In this document: one piece after another, positions 14,220 through 16,095 of the stretch | Position numbering within the stretch: the first letter of the stretch is position 1 | Layout: each line of letters opens with the position of its first letter | Origin: a virus | DNA length: 64,000 nucleotides | Strand: one strand, 5' to 3' | Virus record (IMG/VR): IMGVR_UViG_3300032080_000002 | Location: 1-64,000 of that record | Notes under the pieces: model-generated | What the model saw: the letters and a program-made list of their open reading frames with translations, nothing else | What the model was told of the DNA's origin: nothing | Database searches by the model: none | Position numbers and translations under genes: made by a program

Positions 14220-14443
14220 GAAATGCAAAATATCTCCGCAACAAACCAAAAGGATTTGGAAATAACATTCTAGGTGGAGAAGGAATATCCGGAATACGAT
14301 TGGAATCAGGCTCAAAAATGGACTTTAATGGAAAAGAGGTAATTGTCGTAACCCAAAGAGCTTTAAGGAATTTTACCACGGTATCTGATGGTGATAAAGA
14401 GTTTGAAGTTGAGACTGATAAATTGAAAATAATAAATGAATAA
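14216..14443 (+). CDS. hypothetical protein (75 aa)
   Basis: Coupled to the gene before (ATGA) and overlapping the next start by 8 nt. It has a Gly-rich N-terminal stretch (LGGEGISGIRLESGS) then a basic strand-helix. Unrecognised. Confidence 0.5.
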   Translation: MRNAKYLRNKPKGFGNNILGGEGISGIRLESGSKMDFNGKEVIVVTQRALRNFTTVSDGDKEFEVETDKLKIINE

Positions 14444-14777
14444 AGAAATCCTAAAACAAAACTTTGAAAAAGCCTGCGCAGATTATATCGAATACTTCTG
14501 TAAAAAACAAGAAATGTATTTTGAGTTTTGGGTTGCTGATGAAATAGGTGGAGTAGCTTGTTTTGGGGATTACTTTTTTAGCCTCACAGATATAATATTA
14601 GATATAGAAACTGATCAGCCTGCAGAATTAATTTTAGATTGGCAAAATGAAATTGCTGATCAAGATCCTCAAAACAAAAAATCAGTATTCATAAATTACA
14701 GATCGTACATTAAAGGATTACGATTGATAAATTTAGATGATGATTGGAATTCTGGAAATGGATCACATTACAAATAA
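14436..14777 (+). CDS. hypothetical protein (113 aa)
   Basis: Starts MNKEILKQNFEKACADYIEYF; an N-terminal helix is followed by a beta hairpin (MYFEFWVADEIGGVACFGDYF) and an acidic helix. This helix-then-sheet pattern is seen in several Bacteroidota phage early proteins of unknown role. No motif. Confidence 0.55.
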   Translation: MNKEILKQNFEKACADYIEYFCKKQEMYFEFWVADEIGGVACFGDYFFSLTDIILDIETDQPAELILDWQNEIADQDPQNKKSVFINYRSYIKGLRLINLDDDWNSGNGSHYK

Positions 14778-15776: not shown

Positions 15777-15804
15777 AAAAAACACCGATCATAGTTGACC
15801 GGTG
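15777..15804 (-). terminator. terminator of the leftward module
   Basis: On the minus strand, CACCGGTCA-ACTA-TGATCGGTG (nine pairs, one G-T) is followed by TTTTTT. It lies downstream of the tRNA-like gene and ends the long leftward transcript. Confidence 0.8.
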
Positions 15805-15877
15805 AATTAACCACTAAAAAACTAAAATAATAATGAAAACAATTAAACCATTCACGAAATGAAAAGTAAAAATTTGG

Positions 15878-15974
15878 GAATTTAGAAGGGCTCGAACCTC
15901 CGACCTCACATTCTTTTCGAATGTCCTTTTCAGGATCATTTCTGAAGCACTCTACCTACTGAGCTATAAATTCC
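15878..15974 (-). tRNA. degenerate or unusual tRNA-like gene, anticodon unclear
   Basis: On the minus strand the outer parts are canonical. There is an acceptor stem GAATTTA/TAAATTC (extendable by one G-C pair), U8-A9, D-arm GCTC-AGTAGGTA-GAGT, and T-arm GGAGG-TTCGAGC-CCTTC preceded by AGGTC as in normal variable loops. Between the D-arm and AGGTC there are two hairpins instead of one: TTCAG-AAATGATC-CTGAA and ACATTC-GAAAA-GAATGT. If the second is the anticodon arm, the loop would read like tRNA-Phe (GAA) but with C instead of U33, and the first is a 24-nt insertion. If the first is the anticodon arm, it has an 8-nt loop and a long variable arm. Neither is a standard tRNA. No CCA is encoded. 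Confidence 0.6.
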
Positions 15975-15979
15975 GTTTT

Positions 15980-16010
15980 AAAAAAGCCTACACCATAATT
16001 GATACAGGCT
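15980..16010 (-). terminator. terminator just upstream of the tRNA-like gene
   Basis: On the minus strand, AGCCTGTATC-AATTAT-GGTGTAGGCT (ten pairs, three G-T) is followed by TTTTTT. The tRNA-like gene starts about 6 nt later, so it would be made only by readthrough. Confidence 0.65.
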
Positions 16011-16095
16011 CAAATTAACTATAAAAAAACCATTATGTCTTAATGATAACATTGATACAAATATATATAATATGTTTATTAAAAACAAATGTTTT

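Follow-up and report, generated by a model that had tools for sequence, protein, structure and literature searches.

The roles discussed for the transfer RNAs of phages are to supplement codons or to replace tRNAs that have been cut. In bacteria, the tRNA-like domain of the Y RNA YrlA is circularly permuted and sits on a long stem. For this domain, competitive inhibition of an anticodon nuclease has been proposed (PMC7790460), and tmRNA, which lacks an anticodon, includes the upper half of a tRNA (PMC3985003). According to a review (PMC9976931), the tRNA-like structures of plant viruses can all form an N-1:N73 pair, and histidyl-tRNA synthetase (HisRS) charges minihelices that hold G-1:C73. 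The tRNA elbow is described as being gripped by RNase P, RNase Z, and many enzymes (PMC4810234). In the case of Cas12a3, tRNA ends are reported to be cleaved in vitro even as the loops of the tRNA are removed stepwise; since this removal left the cleavage unimpaired, defences that grip the acceptor end exist (PMC12851939).

In the present study, we analysed a stretch of viral DNA of 64,000 nt (hereafter the window; positions 1 to 64,000 of the IMG/VR record IMGVR_UViG_3300032080_000002) and examined a tRNA-like locus within it. The arms of the RNA are intact, its end is of the histidine type, the anticodon is absent, and the type recurs in many phages. The slot and the two hairpins that flank it are common to the window phage and to a related phage, in which a canonical tRNA occupies the slot.

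The tRNA-like gene and its slot

The gene is 98 nt long and lies on the minus strand, from G-1 at 15974 to C73 at 15877. The first-pass annotation described the locus correctly but omitted the strand: everything reads on the minus strand. The tRNA-like element that it had noticed is real, as the tRNA model of Rfam (RF00005) matched at 41.6 bits against a cut-off of 29. All other Rfam models at the element stayed under their cut-offs, RF00005 alone reached its cut-off in the window, the tmRNA model gave no match there, and the rest of the 88.3-kb record contained no second tRNA match. A standard tRNA call with a defined anticodon, which had been named as evidence to the contrary, was not obtained; ARAGORN called no tRNA anywhere in the window.

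The acceptor, D-, and T-arms had been described as canonical in appearance, and the pair check bore this out. The acceptor strands (5' strand with G-1, 15967..15974; 3' strand with C73, 15877..15884) form 7/7 pairs as GAAUUUA/UAAAUUC, or 8/8 if G-1:C73 is counted. The D arm (15949..15964) has 4/4 pairs in the Rfam alignment and the pair check, and the T arm (15885..15901, loop TTCGAGC) has 5/5; thus, all 16 pairs of the three stems are formed. The usual variable loop AGGTC (44-48) is found in the sequence at 15902..15906.

In contrast to these arms, the middle of the element departs from a canonical tRNA. The central gap is 51 nt versus 27 nt in canonical tRNAs, and the interval from G26 to A44 is 41 nt instead of the canonical 17 nt. 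A 41-nt domain (15907..15947, predicted fold) occupies the place of the anticodon arm. The first-pass annotation had placed two hairpins in this domain, and they fared differently. The second one, ACATTC-GAAAA-GAATGT (15908..15924), was predicted with pair probabilities of about 0.85 except for the outermost A-U. The first one, TTCAG..CTGAA (15946..15929), is ambiguous: with the arms fixed, a GAAA-tetraloop hairpin, UCCU-GAAA-AGGA (15924..15935), was predicted instead (about 0.85 for its three inner pairs, against about 0.16 for TTCAG..CTGAA), whereas folding of the central 41-mer in isolation preferred TTCAG..CTGAA. With the arms fixed, the two hairpins are possibly closed by a weaker stem. 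The energy of the central 41 nt was -10.0 kcal/mol versus a mean of -3.4 in 1000 mononucleotide shuffles, 0.4% of which were equal or better; against dinucleotide shuffles, the fold of the whole element was of modest stability and not exceptional (z -1.22).

The earlier statement that neither loop carries U33 holds for both predicted arrangements, as a 7-nt loop with U33 is absent from either. Neither ARAGORN nor fold prediction gave a 5-bp anticodon stem with a U33-bearing 7-nt loop in the element. As the element is without an anticodon loop, there is also no GUG anticodon of tRNA-His. Nevertheless, the G at 15974, which is encoded, faces the C at 15877, and G-1:C73 is the feature of bacterial tRNA-His (PMC9976931 and the canonical tRNAs described below).

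Terminator-like hairpins on both sides, reported at 6 nt and about 75 nt, were confirmed at 5 nt and 72 nt. The upstream hairpin (11 pairs, 16010..15985) and its T run (together 15980..16010) end 5 nt before G-1, and the downstream terminator hairpin with its T run (15777..15804, terminator scan) begins 72 nt past C73; both are on the minus strand. Because a hairpin and a T run stand directly upstream, transcription of the element needs read-through or a special polymerase. Upstream of the hairpin, a motif match, TTTG-N-TATATTTG (16058..16089, minus strand), is a possible promoter of what we take to be the Bacteroidota type. The TATATTTG half is kept in the related phage; the window contains 7 matches to the motif versus 5.2 expected, which is no excess over chance.

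The record encodes a terminase, a portal, and a virion protein (PHROGs). In its terminase, the phage shares about 30-33% identity with Cellulophaga phages (Pachyviridae), Tenacibaculum phage Gundel, and Flavobacterium elemo phages, and a terminase search gave 87 distant matches, all below 60% identity and mostly from Flavobacterium and Cellulophaga phages. The window phage is a phage of flavobacteria-like bacteria. A near-DNA search among named phages gave no relative.

The sole close relative found in the viral contigs, G001 (87.5 kb), has a terminase 89% identical to that of the window phage; scans of the viral contigs with the capsid protein, the Clp-like protease, the 117-aa neighbour, and the terminase each led to G001 only. 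In G001, the syntenic slot contains, in the same direction, a canonical tRNA-Met(CAT) of 64 bits. All pairs of the flanking hairpins are preserved between the two phages: 11/11 in the upstream hairpin, where three of the compensatory changes are double and three are single, and 9/9 in the downstream hairpin, which has one double compensatory change. Compared with the tRNA-Met, the element shows compensatory changes in all three stems (five double in the acceptor, a double and a single in the T stem, and a single in the D stem), and none of its pairs is broken; therefore, the tRNA top is well formed in the window. Either selection kept the acceptor or another tRNA-like replaced the gene, two histories that would leave the same pattern in a comparison with one relative. 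In the comparison with relatives proposed earlier, the flanking hairpins and the slot are common to G001, but the central domain is not, G001 having an ordinary tRNA. Initiator tRNAs have a weak first acceptor pair, and the tRNA-Met of G001 (L123 4867-4939) has a G1.A72 mismatch.

Remodelled tRNA-likes in other phages

We scanned viral contigs, many of which are fragments, with patterns that combined consensus D and T arms with non-canonical spacing; acceptor pairing was outside the pattern. Because consensus D and T arms were demanded in every pattern, the scans under-count. Short spacing was found in 41 and 53 contigs in two complete scans, and long spacing in at least 119 contigs in one scan and in 80 in a second, complete scan. 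The element set consisted of the scan loci, the window locus, and the locus of Polaribacter phage Danklef (see below), and the long set is a sample. Before counting, we dropped elements with fewer than 6/7 acceptor pairs or fewer than 2/3 outer T-stem pairs, elements less than 60 nt from the locus end, and, in the long set, tandem-tRNA artefacts.

The unique elements numbered 74 in the short set and at least 177 in the long set. At least 6/7 acceptor pairs were present in 58 short elements, in which the anticodon arm is absent, and in at least 141 long elements, in which it is replaced; a few are expected by chance. Among the matches listed, complete 7/7 acceptors occurred in 45/74 short and 122/177 long elements, versus 1.1 and 2.7 expected when strands were shuffled between elements. 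The linker from the D to the T consensus is 12-13 nt in 35 of the 58 short elements, which corresponds to the absence of the anticodon arm. The window element fits this set, with consensus D and T arms, 7/7 acceptor pairs, and a non-canonical gap. No homolog of its central domain was found elsewhere, by blastn against the named phages or by eye among the long elements listed.

The histidine mark is over-represented in the set. In the collapsed set of 177, which includes the window and Danklef elements, G-1 accompanied C73 in 18/23 elements and another base 73 in 10/154, among the matches listed. With stricter clusters and with the window and Danklef elements left out, the counts were 15/20 and 10/147 (p 4e-11; among the matches listed). 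As a control, G-1:C73 was counted among the canonical phage tRNAs of these loci: of 763 unique ones, 13 had the pair (11/18 tRNA-His and 2/745 others). The pair is thus about six times commoner among the remodelled elements (15/167 clusters versus 13/763; odds ratio 5.7, p 1.6e-5; among the matches listed). The alanine G3:U70 pair showed no clear enrichment among the matches listed (15/177; at the six remaining pairs, G:U occurred 1-12 times).

One sub-family, of which 13 sequences were aligned, shares a new central domain on a tRNA top with strong covariation: double changes occurred in 12/21 pairs, and none of 500 shuffles was as high. L110 and L039 of family A were left out; one of them has an additional insert, and the other is divergent. 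In the sub-family, a conserved two-helix domain, of which UCAUGG.GAAGG.CC.AAA.GC is the core, replaces the anticodon loop, and the covariation lies in the acceptor and the inner helix. Members of the UCAUGG-core family include L028, L048, L060, L062, L067, L069, L071, and L083, and in a scan of four member loci, tRNA was the only family that Rfam reported.

Other observations were made in the same collection. A CAGCA motif lies in the expanded loop of elements of about 111-118 nt (L046, L033, L091, L094, L115, L391, and others), some of them in tandem clusters; it occurs in 19/141 long elements versus 7 expected, among the matches listed. On the viral contig of L138 (1356-2052), a permuted/alpha tmRNA match lies near an anticodon-less tRNA-like and a 71-nt tRNA match.

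Several named phages carry such elements. In Polaribacter phage Danklef (MT732458), which was reached by a blastn match, a gene annotated as 'tRNA-OTHER' is a 58-nt tRNA-like in which the acceptor, D, and T arms are perfect and the anticodon arm is missing, and it stands directly behind a hairpin and a T run. Its sister phage Freya has the same downstream gene without the element before it. Lactococcus phages bIL309 (L366) and proPhi2 (L365) have an unannotated 61-nt anticodon-less tRNA-like. Two elements, of 108 nt and 61 nt, lie side by side in the Manatee Spring phage MW202828, whose terminase is distantly related to that of the window phage, and Vibrio phage PhiImVa-1 has a 115-nt element annotated as 'tRNA-Sup'.

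With regard to their surroundings, the Lactococcus element sits between the lysin gene and the record end and has blastn matches in 17 Lactococcus records. The Danklef gene directly after the tRNA-like (L121 1606-2067) is related, at 41% identity, to a gene near the tRNA-like of the window (14436-14777, phrog_35741).

A scan of bacterial genomes for short tRNAs gave 66 stretches, 25 of which no longer matched once N was excluded (L168, L169, L180, L205, L208, and 20 more); the five inspected were N runs inside tRNA genes of draft assemblies. The other 41 stretches included 13 with 7/7 acceptor pairs. Because many of the remaining stretches look permuted, pairing with the sequence just upstream, they were left out of the counts. 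Loci on Bacteroidota chromosomes (L184, L200, L212, and others) contain tRNA-likes in circularly permuted order. The frame after the tRNA-likes of L200 and L184 is presumably slipin-like, and we take the RNA to be a YrlA-type Y RNA.

Candidate explanations for the element

The first-pass annotation had offered three readings of the locus, namely a decayed tRNA, an insertion in the D/anticodon junction, and a tRNA mimic. We consider the mimic to be the best supported of them, decay to fit poorly, and the insertion to be unlikely; the earlier interpretation is supported in part, and the decoy role of a mimic is a candidate function. Our preferred explanation, to which we give a little less than even weight, is that the window element is a maintained tRNA mimic that does not decode, is probably matured like a tRNA, is perhaps charged with histidine, and serves as a decoy. 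The similar anticodon-free look-alikes in many other phages are probably mimics too, and not working tRNAs. Some points stand against the mimic: the central domain was found in no other phage, the sole relative has an ordinary tRNA, the stability of the whole fold is modest, and a hairpin with a T run lies directly upstream (see above).

The decay of this copy is a possibility, because the tRNA of G001 is normal and the central domain was found in no other phage. An insertion or replication slippage in the anticodon arm of the slot's canonical tRNA would then have produced a dying gene that is no longer used. The window copy is a singleton, its central fold is not unique, and after a recent event the stems would still be intact. 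However, all 16/16 stem pairs are formed, the acceptor alone has five compensatory changes relative to G001, G-1:C73 is present, and the pattern is class-wide across phages. We therefore regard decay as a poor fit and improbable, though one to be reckoned with for this copy. Nearly the same doubt attaches to the idea that the tRNA top is a tool: it would either shield the two hairpins as the cargo of a natural tRNA scaffold or mark the site at which RNase P/RNase Z cleavage fixes the transcript ends. The same top bears a variety of structured inserts in other phages, and an open frame starts within 90 nt downstream in 15/33 anticodon-less elements with at least 6 acceptor pairs. On the other hand, a cargo is not needed, because insert-free elements are common (those with the 12-13 nt linker), and in the window a terminator stands between the element and the next gene. 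We consider this use of the top doubtful.

That the RNA decodes, with the insert spliced out or an odd loop still reading a codon, appears very improbable to us. In the wider set, a loop of 21-50 nt is closed by a perfect anticodon stem in 27/92 long elements examined (1.6 expected; among the matches listed), so intron-like cases may exist there. For the window element, inspection revealed no removal of 24 nt that restores a normal anticodon arm with a paired 5-bp stem and a 7-nt loop, and positions 27-31 are unpaired with 39-43 if AGGTC is 44-48. Since no sensible exon junction was seen, the intron reading was rejected for this element. A remnant of an attachment site from a tRNA-integrating ancestor is also unlikely, and we give it hardly any weight. 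tRNA-like attP sites are known, as in P22-type phages (PMC9897764, PMC8022706), but the only integrase match of the window record is sub-threshold (23.5 bits) and 63 kb away. Among 44 records (43 with remodelled elements and G001), an integrase match was present in 13, and it lay within about 2 kb of the element in only two, as read by eye from the coordinates (Danklef, 2.1 kb; the L156 record, 1.3 kb).

If the element is a tRNA mimic, RNase P would cut its transcript, and the 3' end would be trimmed (presumably by RNase Z) before CCA is added. HisRS would perhaps charge the RNA through G-1:C73; given the enrichment of this pair in the set and the charging of minihelices by HisRS (PMC9976931), we can fairly predict, though not conclude, that the window element is histidylated. 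The RNA may then occupy host factors that grip the elbow and the acceptor end; the likeliest of these are tRNA-attacking nucleases or modifying toxins. To anticodon nucleases, it would offer nothing to cleave. The two central hairpins could be a stable cap or a docking site. A decoy role is perhaps the outcome of such binding; the inhibition suggested for YrlA (PMC7790460) and the cleavage by Cas12a3 of tRNAs with reduced loops (PMC12851939) speak for it by analogy.

As a broader and more tentative proposal, which we consider less likely than not, many phage lineages would encode anticodon-free tRNAs that keep the elbow and the acceptor end, with a marked excess of G-1:C73, drop or replace the reading arm, and are matured and charged like tRNAs but used as decoys or scaffolds. 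They would be a counterpart of the plant-virus structures, and the window element would be a histidine-type member with a two-hairpin cap.

Comparison with known systems

Our searches of an open-access library brought up no account of a class of anticodon-free tRNA-likes in phages, and a review of non-canonical tRNAs (PMC7609411) contains no word starting with 'phage'. Some such genes are now unannotated or are filed as undetermined or suppressor tRNAs. If the proposal is true, these non-decoding RNAs would show that phages also exploit the tRNA shape itself; if such RNAs are histidylated, selection would act on the acceptor end of an RNA that is never used to read codons.

Among the described systems, the tRNA-Tyr of phage T5, one of the phage tRNAs that rescue from a tRNA-cutting defence, in this case retron-Eco7 (PMC11555353), shares with the window element the coding by a phage, the tRNA top, and a plausible function in counter-defence. 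However, tRNAs of that type replace the cut tRNA and must decode, whereas the window element cannot. Like tmRNA, the element lacks an anticodon below a tRNA upper half; unlike tmRNA, it has a D stem and, at 3:70, A-U in place of the alanine G-U pair. With YrlA, it has in common a tRNA-like form without decoding and, in view of the inhibition suggested for that RNA, possibly an anti-nuclease role, but its acceptor strands pair in the normal arm order and are not permuted. The 'tRNA-OTHER' of Danklef resembles it in having a hairpin and a T run directly before the tRNA-like top and in the flavobacterial host; the Danklef element, at 58 nt, lacks the arm entirely and has A73, whereas the window element has C73. 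The plant-virus tRNA-like structures are also viral, have N-1:N73, and work outside protein synthesis, some of them being charged with histidine (PMC9976931). They are the 3' ends of RNA genomes and contain pseudoknots, whereas the DNA phage of the window encodes its element as a gene of its own.
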